64,000 nucleotides of DNA from assembly GCA_937927515.1 (NCBI GenBank), contig CALBDO010000002.1:77001-141000 (forward strand), read 5' to 3'. This stretch comes from Candidatus Kapaibacterium sp. (GTDB lineage: Bacteria > Bacteroidota > Ignavibacteria > Kapaibacteriales > UBA2268). The position numbers and the translations under genes are program-made. The stretch's first letter is position 1. The number at the start of each line of letters is the position of its first letter. The notes beneath the pieces were generated by a model. It was not told the DNA's origin. It did not search any database and saw nothing but the letters and a program-made list of their open reading frames with translations. Of this stretch, positions 2 to 56,833 are shown piece by piece.

Positions 2-1201
2 GATGGAAATTTTTCAACCTATTTAGACCATTTAACCGCCGAGGGTAATAAAGAAAGATATAAAGTTTTCTTCCAAAATTTAGATTTCACCAAGCAAAAC
101 TATAGCCTCTTGTTATTCAGCAATGTTTCAGAATTTGAGGGAATTAAAAGAGAACTTGAAATTAACAAGGCTAAATTAGAAAAAATTGAAAAAAATATTA
201 GGTTTGCATCATTTGTGATTGACAATAATTACGCTATTGTCGACTCATTTGGTAAATTTGAGCTAATCAAATATCTGTACGAAAAAAATCAAGCAACCGA
301 ATTTCCAAAGTTTCAAGACATAGTTTACGAAGAGGATAAATTCAAAATATCAGAGGTGATATACAATGCATTCCATTTTCCAAATTTCGTCAAAGAAATC
401 GATTTTCGTATCGATAACAAAAACGAAATAGTTTGGGTAAAAGGGATTTTTGAAAATTTTGTGGACGAGAGAGGAAAAATTCGTTCTGTTGAGTGCTTTG
501 TTATAGATATAAATGAACAGAAGAAGATACTCGAACAACTGAGAGCATCACAAGAGGAGATGAGAAATTTAGCATTATACTTCGAGTCCTTGCGCGAAGT
601 AGAGAAAAAGAAATTAGCTTTTGAAATACACGATGAATTGGGACATCTACTAACTGCTATGAAGCTCGAAATGTCGTGGATATTGAAGAAGAAGTTTCTA
701 CGAGAAGATATACTACAAGAGAAACTCACAAAACTCATAGAGATGATAGAAACAACGATAAGGAAGGTCCGCTCTATATCCTCCCAATTGCGACCAAGTA
801 TACTCGACCACTTTGGAATCGTGGCGGCAATCGAATGGCAAGCAAAAGAATTTCAGAAGCAAACTGCAATAAGATGTCGACTGAACTTGCCGAAACAAGA
901 AATTCAGCTGGATGAAGCCAAGTCCATTGTTGTGTTTCGTATCTTTCAAGAAATTCTGACAAATATTGCTCGTCATGCAAATGCAACAAGAGTGGATATA
1001 AATTTAGAGGTGAACGAAAATAATTTGCTGCTTACTGTCTCTGATAATGGAAAGGGGATAAGGTCCGAAGACCTATCCTCTAAACGTTCCTTAGGGATAA
1101 CTGGTATGAAAGAAAGAGCAAGCTCTGTAAACGGAAAGTTGAATATTTCTGGTGTGTCTAATATCGGAACAACTGTAACATTAACAATTCCAATAAATTA
1201 G
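2..1201 (+). CDS. PAS-domain sensor histidine kinase (HisKA_3 type), 5'-truncated by the window edge
   Basis: The reading frame is open from base 2, so the true start lies upstream; 399 residues are visible. The first ~60 residues look like the end of one PAS domain, and a second PAS domain covers about residues 65-175. A short coiled coil leads into a dimerisation/phosphoacceptor region of the HisKA_3 class (EIHDELGHLL, His about residue 210 of the visible part). A HATPase_c domain follows, with an N-box (EILTNIARHA), a G1 box (SDNGKGI) and a G2 region (SLGITGMKERA). No membrane segment is visible. Such kinases autophosphorylate on histidine and pass phosphate to NarL/LuxR-type regulators; that partner starts 3 bases downstream. 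The signal sensed cannot be read from the sequence. Confidence 0.9.
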   Translation, partial: DGNFSTYLDHLTAEGNKERYKVFFQNLDFTKQNYSLLLFSNVSEFEGIKRELEINKAKLEKIEKNIRFASFVIDNNYAIVDSFGKFELIKYLYEKNQATEFPKFQDIVYEEDKFKISEVIYNAFHFPNFVKEIDFRIDNKNEIVWVKGIFENFVDERGKIRSVECFVIDINEQKKILEQLRASQEEMRNLALYFESLREVEKKKLAFEIHDELGHLLTAMKLEMSWILKKKFLREDILQEKLTKLIEMIETTIRKVRSISSQLRPSILDHFGIVAAIEWQAKEFQKQTAIRCRLNLPKQEIQLDEAKSIVVFRIFQEILTNIARHANATRVDINLEVNENNLLLTVSDNGKGIRSEDLSSKRSLGITGMKERASSVNGKLNISGVSNIGTTVTLTIPIN

Positions 1202-2103: not shown

Positions 2104-4929
2104 ATGGTGCTTTTGGTTGTAATTTTCATTTTCACTACTTATCTGTGTTCTGCACAAAATTTAATTTATCTATACCCCATGCCAAACACTGATTTACACT
2201 CCATCGAAACGCCTATTATTTTAAAATTTGACAAAAGAGTAAATCCTAACGAAATTATACCTCTTATCTCTATTAAAGGTGAGTCCAGTGGGTCACATAC
2301 ATTTAAATATAACATTTCCAGCGACCAAAGAACCCTTACGATTTATACAGATAAACAATTTGCCTTGAATGAGACTGTTTTTATTACCTATGCTGGACAG
2401 GAGAGTAAGTTTACAACAACAAAATTAAGCCCAATCCAACAGAAGCTCCTTTTTCGAGAATACTTTTCAGATTATCTTCCTGCAAGAATAAATCTTTCAA
2501 CCCAAACAAAAAGTAATGATAAATCTTTATCGGACACAATTCCACCGGATTTTCCCAAGATTATAATCAACTCCGTTCGCAATCCTTCACCTGGATATTA
2601 CTATGTAGCAAACTTCGGAATGGGCGTTGAACGAAGTTATTTGATGATAATCGACAAAGATGGAAAGCCGATTAAGTATAAAAAAGTTCCACTACCGGGT
2701 TTCGATTTCAAAATGCAACCAAACGGACTAATTACGAACGCACGGATAATTACATCACATTTGCCTCAAGGGTGGGGATGGGCGGAAGCTTATATGGAAG
2801 TAATGAATGAGAAACTTGAAGTGATAGACACAGTACAATGCAAAGGTGGATACATTGCCGATTTTCACGATTTCAAAATATTGCCAAACGGTCATTACTT
2901 ACTTATTTCATACGACCCACAGCCAATTGATATGAGTCTTGTAATCGAAAATGGGAATCCCAATGCAATCGTATTGGGAAGTATAATACAAGAGTTAGAT
3001 GCCGATAAAAATGTTGTTTTTCAGTGGCGCAGCTGGGACCATATACCAATAACTGACTCTTACGCTCCACTAACAGGAATAGCCGTAGACCCAGTCCACA
3101 TCAATTCTGTAGAATTGGATTACGATGGTAATCTTCTCATTTCGTCTCGTCATTTGTCTGAAATCACTAAAATCAGCAGAGAAACTGGCAAAATTATTTG
3201 GAGACTTTGTGGAAAAAAGAACATGTTTACCTTCGTCAACGAGCATCCGGAAAATGCACCAACTTACTTTTCATACCAACATGATGCACGCCGTCAACCA
3301 AATGGAAATTTAACTCTTTATGACAATGGCAATCAACATCCAACGCCATATTCAAGAGCTGTAGAATATCGGCTTGACGAAGAAAATTTAACTGCAGAGC
3401 TTGTGTGGGAATACCGCAACAACCCCGACATTTATGGCGAAACAATGGGCTCTACTCAACGACTTCCAAATGGCAATACGGTGATTGGTTGGGGCGGGGT
3501 TACCACAGGCCACATACGAATTGTTTCAGAGGTCAATCCACAGGGTGAAGTTGAATTTGAAATGTCTTTTCCAAAAGGCGTGACTTTTCAGACCACTTCA
3601 TACAGAGCTTACAAATTCCCATATCCTCCAAACTTGCCAGATGCAATTGTAACCAAGAACGAGATTTCCTCCATAGTTAATCCCAACATACCACCCTATG
3701 ATACTCTTGAATTCAGTGAGGACGAAATTGAGACAGGAGTCAAAATTGTGTTCGACAAGTTAATTGATGAAAGTCACTCTAAAATTACTGTTGAAAAATA
3801 TTCCTATGCACCATTGTATCCAAGATTTGAAGGAGAAACTCCACTTGTAAATTCGTATAAGATTTTTATAAAGTCTGAAAACATCAATGAATTCGAAGGG
3901 ACTATTGCGATTGATTTATCCAAATACCCTCTGCTTTTACATAGAACAAAACTTTCGCTTTGGCGACGAATTGCAAAGGATTCATTGTTCGTTCAGCTCC
4001 CAAGTTTATACGATGAAGCGAATATGGTTCTGTATGCAAAAATCAAACTTCTCGACGGGGAATACATTATTGCAACTACTGATTTCAGAAATCCACCAGA
4101 GCCACCAATTTTAACTCAACCAAAAGATTCATCTGTACTAAACTCCACAACACCTATATCTTTTTATTGGACACCACAGAACCTTGCAACTAGTTCTGAA
4201 ATTCTAATAGCAAGGGATGAAAATTTTGTAAATGTCGTATACAACACAAATGGATTAAAAAACAATATGTTTGTTGCACCACCATTAAGCGTCGGGAAAT
4301 ATTTCTGGAAAGTGCGTTGCTCCAATGCTTATGGACAAAGTAATTGGTCCGAAGTCTCTACTTTTGAAATTAAGGAACCTTTTTTAGCCATTAAATCCCC
4401 CAAGCAAAACGATATTTTTCAAAAAGAGAAAAGCTGTTTAATTGAATGGGAACACAACCTTTCTCCGGAATTTATGTTAACTTTGTATAGAGAAAACACA
4501 CCATATTTCAACATAATTGATTCAATATATAGTTTTTACGGAAAATACGAATGGATTATCCCAAATCCAATCCCTTCTGGTGGCAACTATAGAATCCGAG
4601 TAACCTCTTTAAAAGACAATAAACTATACGCAGAAAGTGGAATCTTCTCGATTCAAGAGCCAAGCGGAGTACAATCAGCGGGAAATTTAATAAAAGTATA
4701 CCCCAATCCCGCAAATGCAACTATAGAAATCGACATAAACTGTGGCACAATCCATTCTTTAACTATAATGGACTTATTTGGAAATGAAGTAAAGAGCACG
4801 TCTATAATTTTCAATGAAAAAGATAAAATTACCATCGATTTAAAAGATTTTTCAAGTGGAATGTACATCTTAAAAATTCAAAATGGGAATAAATTATTTA
4901 TTGAAAAATTTTATGTAATCAAGGATTAA
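2104..4929 (+). CDS. Exported arylsulfotransferase-like propeller protein with T9SS sorting domain (copy A)
   Basis: The 941-residue protein starts at an ATG preceded by AGGGG and has a signal peptide (residues 1 to about 18, ending CSAQ). A Big_5-like Ig domain lies at about 25-100. An arylsulfotransferase-like (ASST, Arylsulfotran_2 type) six-bladed propeller covers about 150-520, with repeated LPNG(N/H) turns. His255 (DFHDF), His332 (DPVHINS) and His393/Arg396 (YQHDAR) sit in the most conserved stretches and could correspond to the ASST active-site His/Arg set. FN3-like domains follow (about 660-860), then a C-terminal type A T9SS domain (VYPNPAN, SSGMYILKI). It is followed after 6 bases by a paralogue. 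True ASSTs move sulfate between phenols in the periplasm; activity here is unproven, and a purely structural propeller is possible. Confidence 0.8.
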   Translation: MVLLVVIFIFTTYLCSAQNLIYLYPMPNTDLHSIETPIILKFDKRVNPNEIIPLISIKGESSGSHTFKYNISSDQRTLTIYTDKQFALNETVFITYAGQESKFTTTKLSPIQQKLLFREYFSDYLPARINLSTQTKSNDKSLSDTIPPDFPKIIINSVRNPSPGYYYVANFGMGVERSYLMIIDKDGKPIKYKKVPLPGFDFKMQPNGLITNARIITSHLPQGWGWAEAYMEVMNEKLEVIDTVQCKGGYIADFHDFKILPNGHYLLISYDPQPIDMSLVIENGNPNAIVLGSIIQELDADKNVVFQWRSWDHIPITDSYAPLTGIAVDPVHINSVELDYDGNLLISSRHLSEITKISRETGKIIWRLCGKKNMFTFVNEHPENAPTYFSYQHDARRQPNGNLTLYDNGNQHPTPYSRAVEYRLDEENLTAELVWEYRNNPDIYGETMGSTQRLPNGNTVIGWGGVTTGHIRIVSEVNPQGEVEFEMSFPKGVTFQTTSYRAYKFPYPPNLPDAIVTKNEISSIVNPNIPPYDTLEFSEDEIETGVKIVFDKLIDESHSKITVEKYSYAPLYPRFEGETPLVNSYKIFIKSENINEFEGTIAIDLSKYPLLLHRTKLSLWRRIAKDSLFVQLPSLYDEANMVLYAKIKLLDGEYIIATTDFRNPPEPPILTQPKDSSVLNSTTPISFYWTPQNLATSSEILIARDENFVNVVYNTNGLKNNMFVAPPLSVGKYFWKVRCSNAYGQSNWSEVSTFEIKEPFLAIKSPKQNDIFQKEKSCLIEWEHNLSPEFMLTLYRENTPYFNIIDSIYSFYGKYEWIIPNPIPSGGNYRIRVTSLKDNKLYAESGIFSIQEPSGVQSAGNLIKVYPNPANATIEIDINCGTIHSLTIMDLFGNEVKSTSIIFNEKDKITIDLKDFSSGMYILKIQNGNKLFIEKFYVIKD

Positions 4930-4935
4930 TTTAAA

Positions 4936-7900
4936 ATGTGTAAGAAAATTTTACAATACTTTGTTTTATTCATCTTCGTAAAAAACAGTATTTATGCCAA
5001 CGATAATTCGATTATAACGAGGACTGTTTGGAACAATCCTTCTCCTGGTTATTTGTTCCTTGCTCCAATGGACTCTCGGGACATATCGGTTTACGATAAT
5101 TCTGGTTTCAAGGTTTACAGTCGAAACTTTGGTTTTTTTTCCCAAGGTTTTGTAGATTTTAAATTGCATCCAAACGGTAAACTTTCTGCCTTTGATTTCA
5201 TTTCAAATAGATTTGTTATCCTGGACTCAAACTTCAATGTTGTCGATACTGTTTCTGCTGTTGGCTACAATACCGATTTTCACGAATTTTTAATTTTACC
5301 CAACGGAAACTACATGTTAATTGCAGAAGCAGATACAATAATAGATATGAGCCGATTAATTCCAAATGGCCATCCAAATTGCCGAGTAAACAATTTTAAA
5401 ATTCAAGAGATTAACTATAGGACAAAACAAGTAGTTTGGGAATGGAATGCTCTCGAGCACTTTTCAATTCTCGATGCAACCGAAGACATAACACTCGAAT
5501 CGAATTACATTCGACCATTCCACATAAACTCCATAGAATTACTTAGCGATGGGAACCTTTTAATTTCATGCCGTCATTTAGATGAAATAACAAAAATCAA
5601 CCGGTCTACCGGAGAAATAATTTGGAGAATGGGAGGCAGTAAATGCCGAAACAATCAATTCGTATTTGTTAATGATACAATTAATAACTTCTTTGGTTTT
5701 TCCCACCAGCATGACCCAAGAGAACTTTCTAACGGGAATATATTACTATTCGATAATGGAAACTTACGTCCATCTCCTTTTTCGAGGGCTGTTGAATATA
5801 GACTCGACGAAGCAAATCGAAGAGTAACCAAGGTCTGGGAATATCGTGCTCCAAACAATATTGTTTCAAACGCAATGGGAAGCTGCCAGAGACTCCCCAA
5901 TGGCAATACTTTAATATCCTGGGGAGGTACAACAGCCGAGGGTGGACACAATTATTTACTTTCCGAAGTAACCCCCGAAGGTAATTTAGCATTAGAATTT
6001 TATTCAAATGTTGGAACATACCGTGGCTATCGCCACATCTTTAAAATGGATGCTGTCTCGCACACTATATCCACAACTGGTCTTGTTTCATTCAACAATG
6101 CTGAGTACCACACAAACGTTAGCATCTTGGTTAGCAATTTGAACGGTGCTGCAAAAATCACTGTTGAAAAACATCGCTATCCACCACACAACTTGAATCA
6201 GGGTGGTCCCTGCTCGGTTATTCCCTACCGCTGGGTAGTTACCAAACAGAGTAGCAATTCCGTTGCAGGTTATCTTTACTTCGATTTGAGTAACTTATTA
6301 AGCTCTACCTATGCCGATAGCTTAAAAATATATTACAGAGAAAGCGAAGGGTTTGGTGCATTTAATGAACTCAATACATACTATAATTCTCAAAATAATC
6401 GTTTGGAAGCACCATTTGCTGGGGTCGGAGAATATTGCATCGGTACTTTCTCAATAAGAGTTCCCACACAAATTCACCCAGAGAACAACGCTATAAATGT
6501 TCTAATTCCAACTCGCTTTGTATGGAAAAAATTCGTTGCGGGAGAAAAGTATCATTTACAAATCTCTACAAAAGAGGATTTTACAAACATTTTGTACGAC
6601 ATAAACAATATTTCGGACACGAGTTACACAATTAACAATCTGAATTATGGAAAGACTTATTATTGGCGTGTAAGGGCAGTACGAGACAACTGCCAAAGCG
6701 AGTGGAGTAGCACGATGAAATTCACGACCGTTTACGAGGGAATTACAACCTATCTACCAGCAGATAGTTCACTGGATTTGCCTTTAAAAGTAAGATTTAC
6801 CTGGAACCCAAGTTCTGAGGCTTGGGCATATCAAATTCAAATAGCGATGGACAGAACTTTTAGCTTTATTGTTTTGGATACTATTACAAACTCTCCTGCA
6901 ATTGAAATTGAGAGTTTCGATTACTATTCCACTTACTACTGGCGTGTTCGACTACTGCGTGGCGAGCAGTATGGAATTTGGTCGGATATAAAGATGTTCA
7001 GAACAACAATCTCGCCTCCAAAATTGCTTTATCCAGCAAATTATGCAAAAAATTTACCAGTCGATGGTGAATTGAAATGGAATTCTGTTCCAGGAGCAAT
7101 TCACTATTACCTTGTCGTATCAAAAAATCCTCAATTTCACAATAATGAAATTGAAATTGTCGACCTAAAAGAAACTTTCTTTAATTACACAAATTTTGAG
7201 AATGCTACCGTTTATTACTGGCGTGTCCGAGCTACGAGTGAAAATGGTAAGAGCCAATGGTCAGAAACATACAATTTTACAACTCAACTTGTTACGCCAG
7301 AATTGGTTCGTCCACCATTTGCAGATACCCTTGCACCAACAAGTGGAATTCTTCGTTGGAAAGAAGTGCCCCTAGCATCAAACTACGAAATTCAAATTTC
7401 AGAAGATGAAAATTTTGCTTTTGGTGTTATAAAACTTCATACAACAGCGCATACCTGGGTTGGTTATTCTTTCCTTGCCCATTCAACCAAGTATTTCTGG
7501 CGTGTTCGAGCTTACAGCGATGAGCTGGAAAGCCAATGGTCTAAAACAAGTTGGTTCCGAACTTTACCAGAAAATTACTTGCCAGCACCAATATTGATTT
7601 ATCCACAGAACAATGCAACTAACGTAAAAATTAAAGAAAAGCTGATTTGGAATGCTATTGAAAAATCGGACTCCTACCAAATCCAAATAGCCTTCGACAT
7701 TTATTTTAATAATATAATTTTGGATAAAATTACTTCAGATACAAGTCTTTCTATTGGTTCACTTGCTTATGGGACCAAATATTTTTGGCGAGTAAAAGCA
7801 AATAGCAGCAATTTCATTAGTTTCTGGTCGGAAGTCTACCAGTTCACAACAGCTTTGCGGGAGCCTATACTACTGGCACCTTTGAATTTAGCCACCATTA

Positions 7901-8391
7901 GTAACTTTCCTATTGAATTTGAATGGGAAAAAACTTCCAAAAATGCTTTCTATCAATTTCAAATTGCCTACGACTCTTTGTTCGAATTTATCTTTAAATC
8001 TCAGTTGCTTTACGAGCAAAATAACTATACATTATCAACTGCACCCAGTGAAACTTGGCTTTACTGGAGAGTTAAAGCAATCAGTGGAATACTCGAAAGC
8101 GATTGGTCCGAGGTGCGAAAACTTAGAACTCTGAACTTTAATTCAGTTCAAGAAAATACAAAACCGAACTTCAAAATAGTTCAAATTAATGATGGTCTTT
8201 ACTTTTTCCACTCCGAGGACAAAATAGATGTTATTTCAATTTACAACAATTTGGGAATTTTAATCAACCAATCGCAGATTCTTGGTAATTCTTACCTATT
8301 GGATTTAAATACTTTTCCCGTTGGCATATATTTCATAAAAATTCAGATAAATAATAATTTTTACTTTGTAAAAATATTAAACAACTTTTAG
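4936..8391 (+). CDS. Exported arylsulfotransferase-like propeller protein with six FN3-like repeats (copy B)
   Basis: This 1151-residue protein has a signal peptide (about 1-21) and an ASST-like propeller at about residues 30-375 that aligns throughout with the preceding gene: His116 (DFHEF), His196 (RPFHINS) and His259/Arg262 (HQHDPR) occupy the same motifs. It lacks the N-terminal Ig domain of copy A. From about residue 500 to 1069 come six FN3-like repeats of roughly 95 residues, each carrying a (Y/F)WRV(R/K) strand and a W-S pair near its end. The last ~80 residues resemble a T9SS sorting domain (FPVGIYFIKI) without a clear PNP motif. It is cotranscribed with copy A. The pair arose by duplication with later gain or loss of modules. 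Function is inferred only at the level of fold and export. Confidence 0.78.
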   Translation: MCKKILQYFVLFIFVKNSIYANDNSIITRTVWNNPSPGYLFLAPMDSRDISVYDNSGFKVYSRNFGFFSQGFVDFKLHPNGKLSAFDFISNRFVILDSNFNVVDTVSAVGYNTDFHEFLILPNGNYMLIAEADTIIDMSRLIPNGHPNCRVNNFKIQEINYRTKQVVWEWNALEHFSILDATEDITLESNYIRPFHINSIELLSDGNLLISCRHLDEITKINRSTGEIIWRMGGSKCRNNQFVFVNDTINNFFGFSHQHDPRELSNGNILLFDNGNLRPSPFSRAVEYRLDEANRRVTKVWEYRAPNNIVSNAMGSCQRLPNGNTLISWGGTTAEGGHNYLLSEVTPEGNLALEFYSNVGTYRGYRHIFKMDAVSHTISTTGLVSFNNAEYHTNVSILVSNLNGAAKITVEKHRYPPHNLNQGGPCSVIPYRWVVTKQSSNSVAGYLYFDLSNLLSSTYADSLKIYYRESEGFGAFNELNTYYNSQNNRLEAPFAGVGEYCIGTFSIRVPTQIHPENNAINVLIPTRFVWKKFVAGEKYHLQISTKEDFTNILYDINNISDTSYTINNLNYGKTYYWRVRAVRDNCQSEWSSTMKFTTVYEGITTYLPADSSLDLPLKVRFTWNPSSEAWAYQIQIAMDRTFSFIVLDTITNSPAIEIESFDYYSTYYWRVRLLRGEQYGIWSDIKMFRTTISPPKLLYPANYAKNLPVDGELKWNSVPGAIHYYLVVSKNPQFHNNEIEIVDLKETFFNYTNFENATVYYWRVRATSENGKSQWSETYNFTTQLVTPELVRPPFADTLAPTSGILRWKEVPLASNYEIQISEDENFAFGVIKLHTTAHTWVGYSFLAHSTKYFWRVRAYSDELESQWSKTSWFRTLPENYLPAPILIYPQNNATNVKIKEKLIWNAIEKSDSYQIQIAFDIYFNNIILDKITSDTSLSIGSLAYGTKYFWRVKANSSNFISFWSEVYQFTTALREPILLAPLNLATISNFPIEFEWEKTSKNAFYQFQIAYDSLFEFIFKSQLLYEQNNYTLSTAPSETWLYWRVKAISGILESDWSEVRKLRTLNFNSVQENTKPNFKIVQINDGLYFFHSEDKIDVISIYNNLGILINQSQILGNSYLLDLNTFPVGIYFIKIQINNNFYFVKILNNF

Positions 8392-8409
8392 TGCAACCCC
8401 CAAACACAA

Positions 8410-8450
8410 CCCCTGAACAATAAGCATAGCTTATCGAAAATGTTCAGGGG
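8410..8450 (+). terminator. Long hairpin, possible transcription terminator after the arylsulfotransferase-like pair
   Basis: CCCCTGAACA (8410-8419) pairs perfectly with TGTTCAGGGG (8441-8450), and an inner stem ATAAGC/GCTTAT (8420-8425 and 8429-8434) lies inside it. The downstream sequence is TAAATTATTT rather than a pure T run, so it is a weak intrinsic terminator or an mRNA-stabilising hairpin. Its place 19 bases after a stop codon and before an independent gene supports a 3'-end role. Confidence 0.5.
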
Positions 8451-8525
8451 TAAATTATTTCTACGCAATGCATAATATCATAAACTCTATTAACAAAAAT
8501 TAAAGTAATTTTGCTTTTTTTTATT

Positions 8526-9503
8526 ATGGGTAAAATCGAAGTCATAGAATTCCACGAAGGTCTAAAAGGGACGTGGGACAACTTCGTCGAGAGGTCTAAC
8601 AACGGAACAATCTTCCATTTACAGTCTTTTTTAAATTACCATCCGAGAGGGAAATTCAACTTTCATCATTTAATGTTCTACGAAAACAGTAAAATAGTAG
8701 CACTGCTACCGGGCGGTATCGTAGATGACAACATATTTTGGTCGCCTGTTGGTGCAAGTTACGGTTCCCTTGTCACAGAAGATATACCCTTCGAGAAAGC
8801 TTTGCAACTTGTGGACACAATGATGAATTATTTCGACCGAAATGGGTTCAAAGAAATTTTTTTAATTCCGCCACCAATTATCTACAATAAGAAAATCACT
8901 CAGCATATAGAATATGCAATGTTGTACCGTCGTTTTGATTTCGAACTTCATTACATAAGTCACGCTATACATCTCCGTTTCGAGAAGGATTTTCTGTCTT
9001 ACTTCGACAAGACAGCAAGAAAAACAATTAGAAAAATTTTGCGCGAAGAAAAACTCGAAATCCGTGAAAGCAACGACTACACCACATTCAACGAAATATT
9101 AATAAAAAACAAAGCTAAACACAACGCAAAACCAACTCATTCCCTCGAAGATATGCTACGCCTATCGCAATTAGTGCCCAACAAAGTTCGTTTGAACATG
9201 GTTTATTACGAGGAAAAACCCATTGCTGGTTCTTGGCTTTTTATTTGCAATCCAAAAGTGGTGCTATGCTTCTACAATATGCTCCTTTACGAGTATGAAC
9301 ATCTAAAACCAGTGTATTTGATTATGTACGAGACTGTCCGATGGGCATTGGAAAATGGTTTTGAATGGGTGGACATTGGAGTTTCGCAAGATACAAAATC
9401 TCCAGACCCAATGACCCCAGCTCTAAGTTTGATACAGTTCAAAGAAAGATTTAATTCTCGTGGAATATTGCGAAGCACATACCATTACAAGTTTCGAGAT
9501 TAA
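8526..9503 (+). CDS. FemAB/GNAT-like acyltransferase, probable cell-envelope modification
   Basis: I place the start at the ATG at 8526 (325 residues) rather than the TTG 15 bases upstream; neither has a clear ribosome site. The protein resembles the FemAB-related GNAT family: a poorly conserved N-terminal half and a C-terminal half (about 145-300) with RKTIRKILREEKL, a central strand pattern (KPIAGSWLF) and an ending common to the family (WALENGFEWVDIGVSQD, then QFKERF). Such enzymes transfer amino-acyl or acyl groups to peptidoglycan precursors, sugars or lipids. It sits 2 bases before a glycosyltransferase, which supports a role in building a glycan or glycolipid. The substrate is unknown. 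Confidence 0.65.
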   Translation: MGKIEVIEFHEGLKGTWDNFVERSNNGTIFHLQSFLNYHPRGKFNFHHLMFYENSKIVALLPGGIVDDNIFWSPVGASYGSLVTEDIPFEKALQLVDTMMNYFDRNGFKEIFLIPPPIIYNKKITQHIEYAMLYRRFDFELHYISHAIHLRFEKDFLSYFDKTARKTIRKILREEKLEIRESNDYTTFNEILIKNKAKHNAKPTHSLEDMLRLSQLVPNKVRLNMVYYEEKPIAGSWLFICNPKVVLCFYNMLLYEYEHLKPVYLIMYETVRWALENGFEWVDIGVSQDTKSPDPMTPALSLIQFKERFNSRGILRSTYHYKFRD

Positions 9504-9505
9504 AT

Positions 9506-10615
9506 ATGGCTAAAACAAATCTCGATATTTTGTTCATCGCTTTGAATAAAATACAATTCGATGCTCGACTACATAACTTTATCAACACTTATCTTAGCTC
9601 GAACAAAATACTCGGGGCATTGACACTAGACCATCCAACTTTCAACATAAACAATCTAAAACACTACAAGATACAAATCAATGAAAACTTAAGAACTTTC
9701 GTAAAAGTGCTGAAATTTCATAAACAATGCCTCGACCACATCGAGAAATTCGAACCAAAATTCATAGTTTGCTCTGATGTATATTCTCTTCCGATAGGAG
9801 TTAAATTTAAAAAAAGACATAAATCTACTTTAATTTACGACTCTCGAGAGATTTACTCCGAGCTCGCATCGTTGAGAAAACATCCTTTGAAGCAACACCT
9901 ACTGAAACTTTTCGAAGCACACTACATAAGGTATGTTGATAAAATAATCGTTACTGGGGAACTGGATAGAGATTTTCTTCTAACAAAATTTCCCAACAAG
10001 GAAATCACGGTCATTAAAAATTTTCCAAGAAGAATCTCGAATGTAAAAACCATTGATATTAGGAAAACACTTGGTATCGAAAATGATGCAATTATTGCAA
10101 TTTACCAAGGTGTCCTACTCGGCGGAAGAGGGATTGAGATTTCTCTCCGCTCATTAATGTACGATAGCAAAATCCATTTGGTAATTGCAGGCCATGGTCC
10201 GCTCGAGGATAAATTCAAATCATTGGCAAAAGAAATTGGAGTAGAGACGAGAGCGCATTTCATTGGAAGCGTGCCATATTCAGACTTGATTACCTACACA
10301 ATGGCATGCAACATAGGATTATGTCTTATCGAACCCATTTCATTTTCCTACGAACTCGCCTTGCCAAACAAGTTATTTGAATATATACAAGCTAAAATAC
10401 CCATTGTTGCATCGAAATTAATAGCAATTGAAAAAATATTCGACCAGTATGCTGTGGGTGAACTTGTGCAACCAAATATTTCTCCTCCTGAACTTGCAAA
10501 AGTAATAAGATTTGTCGTAAAAAATTCTGAACAATACAGAGAAAATCTCGAGAAAGCTTCGGAAATATTTGTTTGGGAAAACCAAGAAACAAAAATTAGA
10601 GATTTGCTCCAATGA
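9506..10615 (+). CDS. GT4-family glycosyltransferase
   Basis: This 369-residue protein has the GT-B layout: an N-terminal acceptor domain with short Rossmann strands (DILFIALN, IVCSDVYSLP, LIYDSRE) and a C-terminal donor-binding domain from about residue 190 (AIYQGVL, LVIAGHGPLED, FIGSVPYSDL). The E-x8-E segment ELALPNKLFE and the following IPIVASK are typical of GT4 enzymes that bind nucleotide-sugar phosphates. There is no signal peptide, so it acts at the cytoplasmic membrane face. It starts 2 bases after the acyltransferase stop and overlaps the next gene by 4 bases, so the three are one operon. Donor and acceptor are not predictable. Confidence 0.85.
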   Translation: MAKTNLDILFIALNKIQFDARLHNFINTYLSSNKILGALTLDHPTFNINNLKHYKIQINENLRTFVKVLKFHKQCLDHIEKFEPKFIVCSDVYSLPIGVKFKKRHKSTLIYDSREIYSELASLRKHPLKQHLLKLFEAHYIRYVDKIIVTGELDRDFLLTKFPNKEITVIKNFPRRISNVKTIDIRKTLGIENDAIIAIYQGVLLGGRGIEISLRSLMYDSKIHLVIAGHGPLEDKFKSLAKEIGVETRAHFIGSVPYSDLITYTMACNIGLCLIEPISFSYELALPNKLFEYIQAKIPIVASKLIAIEKIFDQYAVGELVQPNISPPELAKVIRFVVKNSEQYRENLEKASEIFVWENQETKIRDLLQ

Positions 10616-11499
10616 TATACCTTTTGTTAATACTCCAACAGTTCCTTGCATCTACAACACATATATTCGCAAAGACGCTCACATCGGATTTGCACCCATC
10701 GCTTGTTTTATTCTACAGAAGTTTTTTTGCAATGATATTCTACCTCGTCCTACTTTGGCTCAAAAAACAAAAAATTTTTGTAATCGAAAAAGGTGACCTC
10801 CATAAATTCATTTTGCTTGCGATACTAAACATTCCGCTAAACCAATTTCTATTCTTTATTAGCATAAAGTTTACCACTGCACCAAATGTTGCCCTTGCAT
10901 ATGCTCTAAGCCCAATCTTTATACTTATAATAGCAAATTTTTTCCTAAAAGAAAAAACAACGATTCTGAAAATCGTTGGAATCCTGTTAGCTATCACTGG
11001 AATTGTCTTGATTTTGATTGAAAAAGGAATTTCTTTAAAGTCGGATTACTTTCTTGGCAATCTTTTAGCCCTTTTTGCAAGTATATGCTGGGCTATATAT
11101 TCAACATACGGAAAACCCTTGATTCGCATCTATGGTAGTATCTATACAACAGCTATGGCAATGATTTTAGGCTTTTTTCTATACTTACCAATATTTCTAA
11201 TAGTCGGAAATGTAAATACAATGCTCAATTTAGAGCCAAGACATTGGTTTGAAATCCTTTATCTTGCAGTAATGACATCGGGGTTTTCATACCTACTGTG
11301 GTATTATGCATTAAAACGATTGCCTGCATCGAATGTGGGAGTTTTCAACAACTTGCAGCCAGTTTTCACAACAATTCTTGCTGTGATGTTTCTCGGACAG
11401 CATTTGACAAACACTTATCTCATCGGTGGAATGCTTGTTATTGTTGGGGTAACGTTCGCACAGATAAATCACGTTGACGCCGAACCTCGTAAAGAATAA
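10612..11499 (+). CDS. EamA/DMT-superfamily membrane transporter
   Basis: This 295-residue protein is almost entirely hydrophobic, with about ten transmembrane helices arranged as two EamA repeats (about residues 1-140 and 150-285). The repeats end in the usual way (LAYALSPIFILIIANFFLKEK in the first, NNLQPVFTTILAVMFLGQ in the second). The family moves small metabolites across the inner membrane, often as exporters. The start codon overlaps the preceding stop (ATGA), so translation is coupled to the glycosyltransferase. The 3' end overlaps the convergent RNA methyltransferase gene by 62 bases. No substrate can be assigned. Confidence 0.88.
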   Translation: MIYLLLILQQFLASTTHIFAKTLTSDLHPSLVLFYRSFFAMIFYLVLLWLKKQKIFVIEKGDLHKFILLAILNIPLNQFLFFISIKFTTAPNVALAYALSPIFILIIANFFLKEKTTILKIVGILLAITGIVLILIEKGISLKSDYFLGNLLALFASICWAIYSTYGKPLIRIYGSIYTTAMAMILGFFLYLPIFLIVGNVNTMLNLEPRHWFEILYLAVMTSGFSYLLWYYALKRLPASNVGVFNNLQPVFTTILAVMFLGQHLTNTYLIGGMLVIVGVTFAQINHVDAEPRKE

Positions 11500-50103: not shown

Positions 50104-50844
50104 TTATTCTTCTTTCTTTTCTTGGGGCTTCGATTCTTCGGTATTTTCTAATTCAGTTTTCTCATCAGTAATAGTTTCAGAGGAAATTTCGGGAGAAGCT
50201 TCATGCGTTTCATGCTCTTGTTTTGTTTCAGCAAAAGATGGGACCTCCTCTTCGACGACTGAAGTTTGCGTTGTTGGTTCAATAGAATCTTTATGCTCAA
50301 CAATTGGTACGGCTTCTTCGGGTTTAGAGGAAACGGGCTCTTCCTTTGTCTTTTTGGATAGTTTTTTCGATTGGGACGTAGTTTTTTTCTTGGTAGCTGC
50401 TTTCTTTTTTGATTTTAGGCTAACTGCACCATCTTGTGGGGCACCCCAATCTACTAATTCGATTGCTGCAAGTTCAGCCGCATCGCCACGGCGAAAGCCC
50501 AACTTTACAATACGAGTGTAGCCACCGGGTCGGTCTATTACAGTTGGGGCAATAGTATCGAATAATTCTTGGACTATTGCCTTGTTGTGAATTAGCCTAC
50601 CAACTACTCTGCGCGAGTGTATATCCAAACTTTGTCCTTCGGGTAACTGTCCATTGCGTTCGCGCAAGACAGCTCTTTTAGCTCGTGTTATAATTTTTTC
50701 AACAAATGGGCGCAAAGCTTTTGCTTTTGCTACAGTTGTGACAATCTTTTTGTGCTCGAGCAATGAAATTGCCAAATTCCTGAGCAAGGCTTTTCTATGG
50801 CTTCTGGTCCTCTTTAATTTCCATCCTTTCTTTAAATGTCTCAT
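50104..50844 (-). CDS. rplQ: 50S ribosomal protein L17 with long acidic C-terminal extension
   Basis: This protein has 246 residues, about twice the usual length. Residues 1-138 are the L17 core (MRHLKKGWKLKRTRSHRKAL, then AKALRPFVEKIITRAK and GGYTRIVKLGFRRGDAAE). Residues 139-246 form a low-complexity Lys-then-Glu-rich tail with no stop or frameshift. L17 sits at the exit-tunnel end of the large subunit. The ATG has AAAGGTG five bases upstream. It is the last gene of the operon. Extended L17 tails are known in Bacteroidetes relatives. Confidence 0.96.
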   Translation of the reverse strand: MRHLKKGWKLKRTRSHRKALLRNLAISLLEHKKIVTTVAKAKALRPFVEKIITRAKRAVLRERNGQLPEGQSLDIHSRRVVGRLIHNKAIVQELFDTIAPTVIDRPGGYTRIVKLGFRRGDAAELAAIELVDWGAPQDGAVSLKSKKKAATKKKTTSQSKKLSKKTKEEPVSSKPEEAVPIVEHKDSIEPTTQTSVVEEEVPSFAETKQEHETHEASPEISSETITDEKTELENTEESKPQEKKEE

Positions 50845-50859
50845 TGTTTCACCTTTCTC

Positions 50860-51906
50860 TTAGTAATCAAAATCCTCGTAATTCCTAAGGGTTGATGCTT
50901 TCTCTGGTTTTAAATATCTTTGTACATTTAAACCAAATTCTAAACCATATTGGTGCACTATATCTTCGAGTTCTTTCAATGATTTCTTTCCTAGGTTCTT
51001 CAATTTCAAGAGCTCTTGTTCAGTTCTCGAAACAATATCTCCAAGGGTCTTTATATTGTTCGACTTCAAACTATTGTATGCGCGGACACTTATTTCAAGG
51101 TCGTCGATAGAAATAGATAAAATTCTTCTCAGCCGTGCGTGCTCGCTTTCAGGAGGTTCGACACTTTGTGGTTGTACGGAAATTTCTCGTCTTTGGGCAA
51201 TATCGAAAGTAAAGAAGTATTGAATGTGCTCGATTAAAATTTTTGCTGCCAAGTGCAACGCGTCTATTGGTGCGATGGTCCCATCGGTCAGAACCTCAAG
51301 AATTAAGCGTTCGTAATCTGTTTTCTGACCTACCCTATGGGGCTCAATGTTGTAGACAACATTCTTTATCGGAGTGTAAATTGCATCAATTGGCAACATT
51401 CCGATAGGATAATCGGACAATGGTTGCTCATCGGCAGGGACATATCCTTTGCCGTAAGCTATTCTCAATTCAACATCAAATTCAGCATCCTCGGCTAATG
51501 TTGCAATATGTAAATCTGGGTTTACTATTTCAATGGAAGGACTACTTCTCTGAATATCGCGAGCAGTCCAAACCATTGGACCTTTTAAATGCAAATTTAC
51601 TTTGAAGGGTTTAGTTTCTTTGGATTTAATACGGACCTGTTTTAGGTTCAAGATGATATCTGTAACATCCTCTAAAACACCGGGAATATTTTGAAACTCG
51701 TGAAGGACGTCGGTAAATTTAACCCCGACAATCGCATAACCGGGAATAGAAGAAATCAATACTCTTCGAAAAGAATTTCCAATCGTCACACCATAACCTT
51801 TTTCTAAGGGTTGCATAATAAAGCGCATAAGATTGGGGTTTTCAGTTTCCTCGATACTTACCTTTTCGGGCATTTGAAGGAAGGTAACAAAATCAATCTG
51901 CGACAT
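50860..51906 (-). CDS. rpoA: DNA-directed RNA polymerase subunit alpha
   Basis: This 348-residue protein has the full alpha layout: an N-terminal dimerisation domain (about 1-240; EKGYGVTIGNSFRRVLISS, PGVLEDVTDIILNLK) and a C-terminal HhH DNA- and activator-binding domain (about 265-330; ISVRAYNSLKSNNIKTLGD, LGKKSLKELEDI). It follows rpsK directly, without rpsD in between, and is followed by rplQ after 15 bases. Length is typical. The ribosome site before the ATG is weak. Confidence 0.97.
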   Translation of the reverse strand: MSQIDFVTFLQMPEKVSIEETENPNLMRFIMQPLEKGYGVTIGNSFRRVLISSIPGYAIVGVKFTDVLHEFQNIPGVLEDVTDIILNLKQVRIKSKETKPFKVNLHLKGPMVWTARDIQRSSPSIEIVNPDLHIATLAEDAEFDVELRIAYGKGYVPADEQPLSDYPIGMLPIDAIYTPIKNVVYNIEPHRVGQKTDYERLILEVLTDGTIAPIDALHLAAKILIEHIQYFFTFDIAQRREISVQPQSVEPPESEHARLRRILSISIDDLEISVRAYNSLKSNNIKTLGDIVSRTEQELLKLKNLGKKSLKELEDIVHQYGLEFGLNVQRYLKPEKASTLRNYEDFDY

Positions 51907-51943
51907 TTTTTACCAATATTTATTTAACTTACTGTTTTACAAA

Positions 51944-52330
51944 TTAAACTCGGCGCCTTTTCGGGGGCCTACATCCGTTGTGCGGAATAGGTGTTTTATC
52001 CAAAATGCTGTGAATTTCCAAGCCAGCCGTGGCAAGTGCGCGAATCGCTGCCTCGCGACCGCTGCCGGGTCCTTTCACAACAACATCGACGCGTCGCAAC
52101 CCCATATCGTAAGCTTCCTTTCCAGCTCGCTCTGCTGCTAATTGTGCTGCATAAGGGGTACTCTTCTTTGAACCACGAAAGCCACTCTTGCCAGCGGAAG
52201 ACCAGCAAAGAGTATTTCCGTACATATCTGTGATTGTCACAATTGTATTATTGAAAGTAGCAAGTATATAAGCTCTTCCGTGTGTCTCTGTTACTTGCTT
52301 TTTCTTTGTTCTTCTTTTTGGTGCAGCCAT
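51944..52330 (-). CDS. rpsK: 30S ribosomal protein S11
   Basis: This 128-residue protein matches S11 over its length: [62 protein letters not shown] and the terminal [16 protein letters not shown]. It lies in the small-subunit platform. The next gene downstream is rpoA at 37 bases, where rpsD would normally stand. Its N-terminus is short and basic, as usual. Confidence 0.98.
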
Positions 52331-52355
52331 TTTACTAATCCCTAATTATATATAA

Positions 52356-52736
52356 TTACTTCTTACCTACAGCTTTCTTCTTTCCAGCAATAGTTTTACG
52401 TCGACCTTTGCGAGTGCGTGCGTTGGTCCTTGTTCGTTGTCCACGAACGGGTAATCCCTTTCGGTGGCGAAGCCCTCGATAACAGCCAATATCGATAAGT
52501 CTTTTAATATTCATTTGAACTTCACTACGAAGCTGACCTTCGACCTTATAATCTTGGATAACTTGTCGAATTCGGGCAATTTCTTCGTCTGTCCACTCAT
52601 TTACCTTTTTGAATTCGTCCACTCCTGCTTTATCTAATATTTCCTTTGCAGTAGTACGCCCAACACCATAAATATAGGTTAGAGCAACAAACCCGCGTTT
52701 ATTCTTTGGTAAATCAACTCCAACAATACGAGCCAT
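52356..52736 (-). CDS. rpsM: 30S ribosomal protein S13
   Basis: This 126-residue protein has the S13 pattern: [39 protein letters not shown], then [20 protein letters not shown] with a basic C-terminal tail. S13 is at the head of the small subunit and contacts the P-site tRNA and L5. It starts 9 bases after rpmJ ends. Its length is slightly above the family mean because of the Lys-rich tail. Confidence 0.98.
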
Positions 52737-52745
52737 TTATACCTC

Positions 52746-52862
52746 CTATCCTTGTCTTTGCTTATATCTCGGATTTTTTTTATTAATGATGTATACTCTA
52801 CCTTTTCGTCGGACAATTTTGTCTTCCGGCGACCGTTTCTTTACAGAAGCTCTTACCTTCAT
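52746..52862 (-). CDS. rpmJ: 50S ribosomal protein L36, zinc-free form
   Basis: This 38-codon gene reads [20 protein letters not shown], then the continuation ends [10 protein letters not shown]. The four zinc ligands of standard L36 are absent (no cysteine at all), so it is the C-minus paralogue. The ATG has AAGGAGAATT upstream. It lies between infA (16-base gap) and rpsM, its standard place. Confidence 0.95.
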
Positions 52863-52878
52863 AATAATTCTCCTTGGA

Positions 52879-53097
52879 TTATTTATACCTATAAATTATT
52901 CTTCCTTTTGTCAAATCGTAGGGAGAAATCTCAACACGTACCTTATCGCCTTGCAATATTTTTATATAATTCATTCTCATCTTGCCAGCAATATGAGCAA
53001 GGACTTTATGTCCGTTTTCGAAACGAACGATAAATTGAGTATTTGGTAGAGCTTCCTCAATTATACCGTCCATTTGTATCATTCCTTGCTTTCCCAT
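52879..53097 (-). CDS. infA: Translation initiation factor IF-1
   Basis: This 72-residue protein is a single OB-fold: [40 protein letters not shown], then [18 protein letters not shown] keep the ATG at 53097 because the family starts about eight residues before the first motif. No good ribosome site precedes it; two later ATGs at 53082 and 53073 have AAGGA nearby, so a shorter form is possible. It is between map and rpmJ, as in Bacteroidetes. Confidence 0.95.
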
Positions 53098-53101
53098 TAT
53101 T

Positions 53102-53917
53102 TTATCTATATGTTAGTACAACAGCTTTATCTTTCGTCACAACAATTGTATGTTCAAAGTGGGCAGATGGTTTTCCATCTGCTGTTACGACTGTCCAACC
53201 ATCAGATTTTGTCAAAACTTTGTAATTCCCCATGTTTACCATTGGTTCTATGGCTAATGTCATATTGCTAAGTAATTTCATATTTGGGTATTGTTTACGA
53301 GCAAGAAGTGGAGGTACAAAATTAGGAATTGGCGGCTCCTCGTGCAACTTCTTACCTATACCATGACCGACCAACTCGCGATTTACACTAAAACCATTCT
53401 CTTCAACCAATGTCTGAATAGCTCTTGAAATATCGTAAACCTTGTTCCCCTCCACTGCTACTTCAATAGCACATTCTAATGCTTCTTGTGTAACTTGCAA
53501 TAGACGTTTTTTCTCCTCGGATATTTCTCCGACTGGATAAGTGACAGCACTATCGCCAAAATAACCATCTTTGTTTACACCGCAATCGAGGGAGACAATT
53601 TCCCCCTCTTTCAGAATTCGCTCTCCGGGAATGCCATGAACAACTTCTTCGTCTATTGAAATACAAAGTGTATGTTTATAAATTTTATTCTCTACCTTAT
53701 AACCTTTAAAAGCCGGTAATGCATTGTGAGAAAGTATATAATCCTCGGCAATTTTGTCCAGTTCAATTGTTTCAACGCCGGGTTTTACATACTTTTCAAG
53801 CAAAGCTAAAACATCGGCGACGATACGGCAGGCTTGTTCAATATATTTAAGTTCCTCGGTGCTTTTAACCAAGGAATTTGGATTTGTCAAGCCTTGTGCG
53901 TATCTCGTCTTGCGCAT
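53102..53917 (-). CDS. map: Methionine aminopeptidase type I
   Basis: The ATG at 53917 has a perfect GGAGGA site and gives 271 residues; a GTG six codons earlier overlaps secY and is unlikely. The pita-bread fold motifs are visible: [20 protein letters not shown] with two metal-binding Asp, [15 protein letters not shown] with the catalytic His, and [10 protein letters not shown] and AHFEHTIVV for the Glu ligands. It removes N-terminal methionine from new proteins. It follows secY by one base and precedes infA. Confidence 0.96.
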
Positions 53918-53918
53918 A

Positions 53919-55268
53919 TTATATTCCTCCAACACCAGCAGTTCGGCCGCGGATTCGTCCGCTTTTCATAAAGCCGTCGTAATGACGCATCAACAAGAAG
54001 GATTCAATTTGTTGTAAAGTGTCGAGAATTACACCTACAACAATCAAAATTGATGTTCCGCCGAAGAAAGATGCAAAAGAAGAAGTTACCCCTAATACAT
54101 TTATCGCAAAAGTTGGTATTACAGCAATAATAGCCAAGAAAATAGAGCCGGGAAGTGTAATTTTTGTTAAAACAGAATCGATGTATTCAGAGGTTTGTTG
54201 TCCGGGTCGAATACCGGGTATAAATCCACCCTGTTTTTTCATATTATCGGCGATATCCCGAGGATTGAAAATCACAGCAGTATAGAAGTAAGTGAATAAA
54301 ATGACAAGCCCAGCATAAAGTATGGCATAGATGAACGAACGCTCACTAAAAGCAACAACTATGTTATGTAGCCACTGGCTTGTTGGGAAGAAGTTAAAGA
54401 TTGTTTGAGGAATAAATATTATAGATTGAGCAAAAATAATCGGCATAACGCCTGCAGTTATAACACGAAGAGGGATATATTGCGTTGTACCTCCGTAAAT
54501 TTTACGTCCTACTTGCCTTTTTGCATATTGTACTGGTATTCTACGAGCACCTTGAGAAATAAAAATAATTGAGGCTACGATTGCAACCCAGAAAGTAAGA
54601 ATGATAACTTCGACGGGCCAGGGTCTCTCGCCCAAGGTGAAAACTTGCGAAAATTCCTGGTAAAGTGCAGTGGGGAATCTTGCAACAATACCGATGAATA
54701 TCAAAAGGGAAATCCCATTGCCGACGCCACGCTCGGTGATTTTCTCGCCCAACCACATCAAAAACATTGTTCCAGCGGTCAGCAAAATAATTGTGGACAA
54801 TACAAAAAAGAAGCCCGAATTCGGAACAACGGGCATCCCATTAGCTTCCATATTGACCAATCTTATTGTCATCCCCCAGGATTGGAACATACAAATCGGT
54901 ACGGTAAGCAATCGTGTATACTGGTTAATTTTCCTACGACCTTCTTCACCTTCTTTTTGCATTTTTTGAATTTCGGGAATGACTATTCCAGCAAGTTGCA
55001 TAATAATAGAAGCGGTTATGTAGGGCATGACCCCAAGAGCAAATATCGCGGCATTGGAGAAAGCACCTCCTACGAAGAAATCAAATAGACCGAACAAATC
55101 TTGTGCAGCTCCTTTGTTGAATGCGGTAAGCACTTCGAAATCCACCCCAGGAAGAGTAATGTGTGCTCCTATTCTTGCAACTATAATAGCAAAAAGGGTA
55201 AAAAGGAGCCTTTGTTTTAATTCTTCAATTTTCCAAATATTTTTAAAAGTTTCAACAAGTTTACTCAT
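53919..55268 (-). CDS. secY: Protein translocase subunit SecY
   Basis: I place the start at the ATG at 55268 (449 residues), preceded by AAGGTGG; the longer frame would reach into rplO. Ten transmembrane helices and the standard motifs are clear: LPGVDFEVL at the plug side, GGAFSNAAIFALGVMPYITASI, then TERGVGNGISLLIF, and RGRTAGVG at the C-terminus. SecY forms the protein-conducting channel with SecE and SecG. It overlaps the end of rplO by 8 bases and is followed by map. Confidence 0.97.
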   Translation of the reverse strand: MSKLVETFKNIWKIEELKQRLLFTLFAIIVARIGAHITLPGVDFEVLTAFNKGAAQDLFGLFDFFVGGAFSNAAIFALGVMPYITASIIMQLAGIVIPEIQKMQKEGEEGRRKINQYTRLLTVPICMFQSWGMTIRLVNMEANGMPVVPNSGFFFVLSTIILLTAGTMFLMWLGEKITERGVGNGISLLIFIGIVARFPTALYQEFSQVFTLGERPWPVEVIILTFWVAIVASIIFISQGARRIPVQYAKRQVGRKIYGGTTQYIPLRVITAGVMPIIFAQSIIFIPQTIFNFFPTSQWLHNIVVAFSERSFIYAILYAGLVILFTYFYTAVIFNPRDIADNMKKQGGFIPGIRPGQQTSEYIDSVLTKITLPGSIFLAIIAVIPTFAINVLGVTSSFASFFGGTSILIVVGVILDTLQQIESFLLMRHYDGFMKSGRIRGRTAGVGGI

Positions 55269-55722
55269 AAATTGCCACCTTACCTCCAACAGATTCGATT
55301 TTCTCTTTTGCAGATTTAGAAAACTTATGGGCAACAATTGTCAATGGCTTGGATATCCTCCCATCTCCAAGAATCTTGATGGGTTGGTCTTTTTTGCTCA
55401 CCAAGCCAATAGTAAACATAAGTTCTGGGTTTAATTCATCAATTGTTATTTTACCTTTATCGATAAAGTATTGAATTTTTTCCAAATTAACCACCTGATA
55501 TTCAAGACGAAATCTGTTGTTAAACCCAAATTTTGGTACTCGGCGGACCAAAGGCATTTGTCCACCTTCAAAAGCAAGTTTCCGTCGGTACCCACTTCTG
55601 GATTGGTGTCCTTTGGTACCACGAGTAGCGCTTCCTCCGTGACCGGAGCCAGCTCCACGACCAATTCTCTTATCTTTGTGTGTAGAGCCAACTGCTGGTT
55701 TTAAATTCCCTATGTGTTTCAT
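55261..55722 (-). CDS. rplO: 50S ribosomal protein L15
   Basis: I choose the ATG at 55722 with AGGTG six bases upstream (153 residues); a GTG three codons earlier is possible. The sequence shows the L15 start (MKHIGNLKPAVGS), the glycine-rich arm (GRGAGSGHGGSATRGTKGHQ) and a C-terminal domain (SKSAKEKIESVGGKVAIYE). It lies between rpmD and secY. L15 helps late assembly of the large subunit. Confidence 0.96.
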   Translation of the reverse strand: MKHIGNLKPAVGSTHKDKRIGRGAGSGHGGSATRGTKGHQSRSGYRRKLAFEGGQMPLVRRVPKFGFNNRFRLEYQVVNLEKIQYFIDKGKITIDELNPELMFTIGLVSKKDQPIKILGDGRISKPLTIVAHKFSKSAKEKIESVGGKVAIYE

Positions 55723-55737
55723 AGTGCTCACCTAATG

Positions 55738-55923
55738 TTATCCTTCAACTTCTTCCACTTTAACCAAATGTTTTACCACTTCTATCATGCCTCGAATTTG
55801 CGGATTATCGGGCAGAATATTAAAATAATTTGGTCGACCCAAGCCCAAGGCTTCGATTGTTCTTTTTTGTTTTTTATTTGTCTTGATGATGCTTCGAACC
55901 TGTGTAACTTTAATTTTTTTCAT
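55738..55923 (-). CDS. rpmD: 50S ribosomal protein L30
   Basis: The ATG at 55923 gives 61 residues, the usual length of L30, beginning MKKIKVTQVRSIIKTNKKQK. A longer in-frame start would overlap rpsE. The motif RTIEALGLGRPN and a C-terminal VVKHLVKVEEVEG complete the family pattern. It sits between rpsE (13-base gap) and rplO (15-base gap). Confidence 0.95.
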   Translation of the reverse strand: MKKIKVTQVRSIIKTNKKQKRTIEALGLGRPNYFNILPDNPQIRGMIEVVKHLVKVEEVEG

Positions 55924-55936
55924 AACAATCCCAGAA

Positions 55937-56440: not shown

Positions 56441-56461
56441 AAGTCATTTCCATAAAAATTC

Positions 56462-56833
56462 TTAAAATTTTAAACCACCTTCTCTTGCTCCCTCGGCAAG
56501 AGCCTTCACTCGACCGTGAAAAAGGTAACCATTTCTATCGAAAGCGACGTTTACCAAACCTTGCGATAGTGCCTTTCGTGCTAAGACCTGGCCAACTATC
56601 TTTGCTTGTTCTATTTTTTTCATCCCATCTTTGATTTGCGAGCGAACATCTTTATCGAGTGTAGAGCAAGATACGAGTGTATGCCCAATCTCATCATTAA
56701 TAATCTGACAATAAATATGCTTGAGACTACGATAGACTGATAGCCTTGGTCGTTCGGCTGTACCGAATATCTTCTTCCGCACGCGCAATTTCCTTCGGCG
56801 TCTTCTGATTTTCTTCAATTCCAGTCTATTCAT
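56462..56833 (-). CDS. rplR: 50S ribosomal protein L18
   Basis: This 123-residue protein fits L18: a basic N-terminus ([20 protein letters not shown]), [18 protein letters not shown] and the end [20 protein letters not shown]. It binds 5S rRNA with L5 and L25. It starts 33 bases after rplF and precedes rpsE. Confidence 0.97.

Follow-up and report, generated by a model that had tools for sequence, protein, structure and literature searches.

We analyzed a window of 64,000 nucleotides from the genome of a Candidatus Kapaibacterium, a hot-spring-type bacterium of the Ignavibacteria (assembly GCA_937927515.1). The window is the stretch C2:77001-141000 of a 2.39-Mb genome in 41 contigs, here labeled G000, and G000 to G004 are the five genomes of its genus, which takes in the deposits Candidatus Kapaibacterium Ch6, Ignavibacteria bacterium SKW242, and MS-B_bin-24. 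Two open reading frames (ORFs), A (941 amino acids) and B (1,151 amino acids), lie on the same strand with a spacing of 6 bp, directly downstream of genes for a sensor histidine kinase and a response regulator (Table 1). A and B are members of the arylsulfate sulfotransferase (ASST) family (PF05935), which is independent of 3'-phosphoadenosine 5'-phosphosulfate (PAPS); their activity is predicted, and both are probably exported by a type IX secretion system (T9SS). A first-pass annotation made from the DNA letters had described tandem ASST-like propellers with T9SS-type ends beside a two-component system. The ORFs, propellers, tails, kinase/regulator pair, and paralogy of A and B that it proposed all stand, as do its catalytic histidines and, as probable, export through the T9SS. 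The arginine that it named and its idea of a regulated module do not.

Domain architecture and fold of A and B

Both proteins score far above the cutoffs of PF05935 (103.5 bits for A and 106.7 bits for B; cutoff, 24.2) and PF14269 (102.6 and 97.1 bits; cutoff, 27). Each also directly matches the sequence of Cpz4, the ASST of caprazamycin biosynthesis in Streptomyces (PDB 9kf4/9kf6), with E values of 2.7e-39 for A and 2.2e-25 for B. An AlphaFold2 model of residues 21 to 505 of B has a predicted local distance difference test score (pLDDT) of 94.1 and a predicted template modeling score of 0.92; the input alignment of 48 sequences (alignment A1) held the two window propellers and 46 hand-picked from 64 family stretches, with 2 further short ones set aside. 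The top 11 Foldseek matches of this model are all ASST chains, among them a reaction intermediate of Cpz4. Superposed with VIA-align 2, the model aligns with Cpz4 (9kf6) at a Z score of 41.7, with a root mean square deviation (rmsd) of 2.1 over 330 residues and 27% identity. The comparison with Escherichia coli ASST (3elq) that the first-pass annotation had proposed likewise returns the ASST fold (Z score of 32.3; rmsd of 3.2 over 338 residues), and the next family after the ASSTs reaches a Z score of only 20.7.

Outside the propeller, the two proteins differ in their added domains. The N-terminal immunoglobulin (Ig)-like domain proposed for A is borne out by its lineage, where Big_5 matches at an E value of ≤0.01 in 16 of the 19 aligned N termini; in the A sequence alone, the match is below the cutoff (E values of 0.045 in a Pfam scan and 0.0048 in a second comparison), and a profile of this domain found no convincing match among solved structures (best E value, 0.0077). 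Two C-terminal Ig/FN3-like domains at residues 693 to 850 of A had been missed in the first pass. In B, the six FN3-like repeats are marked by the strand motif [YFL][YF]W[RK]V[RK], which recurs six times (residues 575, 667, 760, 853, 949, and 1042).

These additions also distinguish the pair from the solved enzymes. Cpz4 has a role in antibiotic biosynthesis, and its 472-residue chain has no room for FN3 arms and a T9SS tail. The ASST of E. coli CFT073 (3elq, 3ets, 3ett, and 4p04-4p07) has the same fold as the model of B and carries its own N-terminal beta-sandwich (PMC13426309, in the part available); A has the Big_5 match at this end, and B has none. According to the same partial text, E. 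coli ASST resides in the periplasm, contains a disulfide that is essential, and has DsbL/DsbI as partners, whereas Cpz4 is described as PAPS independent, which is also the family reading for A and B.

Table 1. Features of the A-B locus, with positions in the window.
Feature	Position	Strand	Evidence or remark
Sensor histidine kinase, C-terminal part (HisKA_3 + HATPase_c)	2..1201	+	Open at window edge
NarL/LuxR-type response regulator, 209 amino acids	1204..1833	+	Response_reg, 110.6 bits; GerE, 67.5 bits
ORF A, putative exported ASST: N-terminal Ig-like domain, ASST propeller, Ig/FN3-like domains, T9SS type A tail	2104..4929	+
A N-terminal Ig-like domain (Big_5), residues 22-95	2167..2388	+	Big_5 match in aligned A-lineage relatives
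A ASST propeller, ~residues 150-510	2551..3633	+	phmmer to 9kf6, query 145-510, E = 2.7e-39
A His255 (E. coli His252)	2866..2868	+	Profile alignment
A His332 and Asn334 (His356 and Asn358)	3097..3105	+	Profile alignment
A Arg349 (Arg374), active-site Arg	3148..3150	+	Profile alignment
A His393 (His436), predicted sulfuryl-carrying residue	3280..3282	+	Sequence match and profile alignment
A Arg396, Arg of the first-pass annotation; aligns with Trp439	3289..3291	+	Register and conservation
A T9SS type A sorting tail, residues 865-938	4696..4917	+	PF18962, 48.5 bits; TIGR04183, 38.4 bits
ORF B, putative exported ASST: propeller, one more beta domain, six FN3-like repeats, T9SS tail	4936..8391	+
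B modeled stretch, residues 21-505 (propeller, then beta domain)	4996..6450	+	AlphaFold2
B His116 (His252)	5281..5283	+	Profile alignment and conservation
B His196 and Asn198 (His356 and Asn358)	5521..5529	+	Profile alignment and conservation
B Arg213 (Arg374)	5572..5574	+	Profile alignment and conservation
B His259 (His436), predicted catalytic residue	5710..5712	+	Profile alignment and conservation
B Arg262, Arg of the first-pass annotation; variable in relatives	5719..5721	+	Arg in 6/57 B-lineage sequences
B six FN3-like repeats, ~residues 508-1062	6457..8121	+	Pfam fn3 and Ig_Rha78A_N stretches; strand motifs
B T9SS type A sorting tail (weak), residues 1090-1147	8203..8376	+	TIGR04183, 23.8 bits; PF18962, 23.5 bits

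Active-site residues, lineages, and pairing

In E. coli ASST, His436 is the sulfated residue, and His252, His356, Asn358, Arg374, and Thr501 are given as further residues of the site in the available part of PMC13426309. A profile alignment to 3elq places His436 and four of the other five in register with both window proteins, and the numbering of the solved chain fits exactly, as the 3elq segment starting at residue 353 gives His356, Asn358, and Arg374. The His, His, Asn, Arg, and His set of Cpz4, aligned over its propeller, is likewise in register. The first-pass annotation had read the residue letters correctly at all its named positions, and its three histidines in each protein correspond to the catalytic set. 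It had overlooked Asn334 of A and Asn198 of B, and the arginine that it named (Arg396 in A and Arg262 in B) corresponds to Trp439 in E. coli ASST and to a serine in Cpz4. A catalytic role for Arg396/Arg262 is rejected because of register and conservation, and the active-site arginines are instead Arg349 and Arg213.

We followed the five-residue set (His252/His356/Asn358/Arg374/His436, or HHNRH) through relatives of the two proteins. Among 198 genomes drawn from the phylum, 55 have a PF05935 match above the cutoff, and a search of 60 relatives with the A propeller gave a match in 29, the weakest of them marginal. In loci L034 to L147, 202 ORFs matched the ASST profile, 198 of which covered more than 280 positions and 159 of which were left after removal of duplicates. 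Loci L074 to L147 are a biased sample because they were found through one peptide pattern and represent the best 80 of at least 583 confirmed stretches (74 distinct loci). A FastTree phylogeny of all 159 rows splits them into a B lineage (n = 57; support, 99), an A lineage (n = 51; support, 100), and others (n = 51). A and B were again single groups (supports of 100 and 99, respectively) in a mixture-model tree of 90 rows (51 A, a random 22 of the 57 B, and a random 17 of the 51 others) from which the five site columns had been removed. A and B are thus two old lineages.

The catalytic histidine is retained in 158 of the 159 relatives (B, 57/57; A, 50/51; others, 51/51). The complete set of five is present in 56 of 57 B-lineage and 48 of 51 other sequences and in 31 of 51 A-lineage sequences. 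Substitutions in the A lineage replace Arg374 (Pro, Ala, Val, or Ser), His356 (Asn, Leu, or Arg), His252 (Ala), and Asn358 (Ser or Asp), and the aligned segments look sound on inspection by eye. Both trees place at least four separate site changes inside A, and one change was counted inside B.

An intact A followed by B on the same strand, with a gap of no more than ~230 bp, occurs in 13 genomes that represent 9 genera (G000, G001, G002, G004, G009, G012, G013, G018, G019, G020, G021, G028, and G035). In the remaining genome of the window's genus, G003, A and B are broken into ORFs of 567, 378, 527, 190, and 346 amino acids (L037, which is G003:C18:8000-26000, positions 5054-11369, minus strand), through either assembly errors or decay. 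More broadly, another ASST follows within 300 bp downstream in 22 of the 46 A-lineage sequences with at least 1.5 kb of downstream sequence, and an ASST lies within 300 bp on either side in 30 of 51. Arrays of three to six ASSTs are found in Ignavibacteria, their neighbors, and one Zixibacteria metagenome-assembled genome (MAG) (L085, L110, L112, L115, L124, and L145), and their members carry the full five-residue set in all but one case (in L145). A MAG labeled Desulfobulbaceae and an Ignavibacteriae MAG carry closely related A-B-B arrays (L093 and L048), a likeness that reflects either a recent transfer or a mis-binned contig.

Sorting tails and predicted export

The C termini of both proteins reach the TIGR04183 cutoff of 23 bits, in agreement with the T9SS-type ends noted in the first pass, and the orthologue of B in G002 has a TIGR04183 tail of 35.9 bits. 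At an E value of ≤0.001, 117 of the 141 relatives whose C-terminal end is complete have this tail (A, 47/48; B, 43/49; others, 27/44); the remainder of the 159 lacked a complete end or were shorter than 560 amino acids. The window genome contains 78 TIGR04183 tail matches together with SprA and PorU, each of which is present in 10 of the 10 genomes searched. Export through the T9SS to the cell surface is therefore probable for both proteins. A and B resemble known T9SS type A cargo in their C-terminal TIGR04183 domain and in the presence of SprA and PorU in the genome, and differ in that the cargo here is an ASST. In the openly licensed literature, we found no paper joining an ASST or sulfotransferase with the T9SS, and for tandem ASSTs of Bacteroidetes we found only an unrelated review.

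Function and gene neighborhood

Homology, fold (for B), residue register, sorting tails, T9SS parts, and conservation together make it likely that A and B are sulfotransferases with the fold of Cpz4 and E. coli ASST that are exported by a signal peptide and the T9SS, with predicted activity at a predicted surface location. Signal peptides would carry A and B through the inner membrane and the T9SS across the outer membrane, where the sorting tail would be cut off and the enzyme would remain on the surface or be released. The catalytic histidine (His393 in A and His259 in B) would take the sulfuryl group from a sulfate ester, with His255/His116, His332/His196, Asn334/Asn198, and Arg349/Arg213 holding the group, and would then pass it to an acceptor hydroxyl in a ping-pong reaction. 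The probable role of the FN3/Ig arms is to act as spacers or anchors. Natural ASST substrates are mostly unknown according to the part of PMC13426309 available, which also reports a preference of Cpz4 for sugar hydroxyls; because Cpz4 is the closest relative with a solved structure, the sugar hydroxyls of surface or mat glycans are perhaps the acceptors, which seems a reasonable guess.

Several observations weigh against this reading. The tail of B misses the Pfam cutoff (PF18962, 23.5 versus 27 bits) and is barely above that of TIGR04183, and the signal peptides of A and B were judged by eye from hydrophobic N termini. A full-length model of A built from one sequence has a pLDDT of 33. The 3elq matches that carry His252 and His356/Arg374 are weak singly (9.2 and 7.3 bits), if collinear and exact in number. 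Lastly, most members of the A and B lineages have Met or Gln in the column of Thr501; A has Met448, and Thr occurs in 6 of the 159 relatives (1 B, 2 A, and 3 others). The cysteine found 12 residues before the catalytic histidine in E. coli ASST is absent before His393 of A and His259 of B, as judged from lists of their cysteines. With neither Thr501 nor this cysteine matched, A and B are not assigned to the periplasmic E. coli-type subfamily.

The missing Thr501 would also suit structural or ligand-binding propellers without catalysis, and beta-propellers are common as surface binding modules. We consider this quite improbable for A and B, as the five-residue set is incomplete in just one of the 57 B-lineage sequences and three of the 51 unclassified ones and the best fold matches are ASSTs, including a reaction intermediate. 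An unequal pair is a possible alternative, if a tentative one, in which B would carry out the sulfotransfer and A would assist it by binding, presentation, or relay or would have a changed chemistry. With similar caution, A may lose part of the sulfuryl-binding site in the course of its evolution, though it looks complete in the window's genus. The intact HHNRH set of B against its erosion in A and the repeated changes within A point this way, as do nine loci in which an altered A lies beside intact B copies (L043, L046, L047, L048, L049, L061, L093, L095, and L105, a count that includes the close relatives L048/L093 and L043/L105). The altered A proteins are still long ORFs in a lineage that retains the catalytic histidine, and an Asp three residues past Arg213 is invariant in the B lineage (57/57), where A mostly has Ser (30/51). 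Against this, A has all five residues in 5 of 5 genomes of the window's genus, loss of Arg374 or His356 need not end activity, and no ASST lies within 300 bp of 21 of the 51 A-lineage sequences, in some cases because the flanks are short. Broader still, and in our view unlikely, is a widespread two-protein surface sulfation machine of Kapabacteria and Ignavibacteria in which each A-type ASST works together with at least one, and up to several, ASSTs of the B type or another type. In several lineages, A would be in the process of release from full catalysis while retaining the sulfo-accepting histidine, so that it could serve B outside the cell as a sulfo-histidine relay or by presenting the substrate.

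Two further alternatives place the pair in a wider physiological setting. Members of the ASST family transfer sulfate rather than release it, which counts against surface ASSTs stripping sulfate off organic sulfates to supply dissimilatory sulfate reduction. In favor of this very improbable scenario, dsrA is present in the window genome, and the genus includes MS-B_bin-24, a Mushroom Spring MAG representing "Candidatus Thermonerobacter thiotrophicus," a predicted sulfate reducer (PMC6338057, in the part available). Across the genomes, dsrA is present in G000 to G003, G009, and G018 and was not found in G004, G012, G021, G035, G006, and G007. As A-B pairs occur both with and without dsrA (the latter in G004, G012, G021, and G035), there is no fixed link between the pair and sulfate reduction; sulfatases are also scarce, with a match in just 5 of 10 genomes. 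A regulated module, as raised in the first-pass annotation, appears improbable as well; in this reading, the kinase and regulator would sense a sulfate ester or the surface state and turn on A-B. The two genes lie directly upstream of the pair in G000, G001, G002, and G004 (four of the genus's five genomes), and in G018 a regulator 72% identical to that of the window is encoded on C94, 0.9 kb ahead of a single B-type ASST, with the kinase on C72. However, in G003 they are on C7 and the ASSTs well inside C18, in G009 and G022 they are unlinked to ASSTs, and they were absent upstream of all eight testable A-B pairs of other genera (G009, G012, G018, G019, G020, G021, G028, and G035; G013, which has no upstream sequence, was left out). 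Within the genus, identity is lower for the kinase (44 to 52%) than for the A propeller (80 to 90%), and no common element was seen by eye in the 132- to 397-bp stretches between the regulator and A. Because the linkage is confined to the window's genus, a conserved kinase-regulator-ASST module is not supported and is rejected beyond it. The adjacent kinase/regulator is a local neighbor rather than a conserved part, and its co-regulation of A-B is possible in this genus, not as a feature of the system.

The chemistry of predicted exported sulfotransferases such as A and B is known, and the new variant features are the route of export, the combination of domains, and the pairing of two unequal copies, for which we found no description in the open-license literature. 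Tandem T9SS-tailed ASSTs in Kapabacteria, Ignavibacteria, and some neighbors suggest a trait of cofactor-free sulfation outside the cell, through which glycans of the surface or of mats could be altered. The uneven decay of A versus B offers a testable case of an enzyme lineage becoming the partner of its sister.

Around the pair, promoter and terminator scans did not rise above shuffled sequences (30 versus 25.2 ± 5.2 and 2 versus 5.1 ± 2.7, respectively), and Rfam and tRNA scans of the window gave no match. Clustering of the neighbors at 40 family loci found no partner besides the ASSTs in more than seven loci, and a shared neighborhood outside the genus was set aside. Within the genus, Pfam identifies MurB, FemAB-like, and glycosyltransferase neighbors. 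The whole kinase (728 amino acids; L034, 8016-10202) starts upstream of the window and is preceded by a murB-like gene (L034, 6964-7995) in four of the five genus loci; one also lies near the pair in G009. Related propeller proteins are divergent from adjoining ASST genes at three loci (L042, 11449-14277; L047, 13270-16530; and L056, 8918-11704), and the two that were scanned are of the Sortilin/BNR type. A third, borderline PF05935 match in the window genome lies at G000:C18:23833-24165 (24.9 bits with its in-frame neighbors). At the far end of the window (50104-64000, minus strand) is an unremarkable operon of ribosomal protein genes that also includes rpoA, secY, and a methionine aminopeptidase gene, named from their translations.

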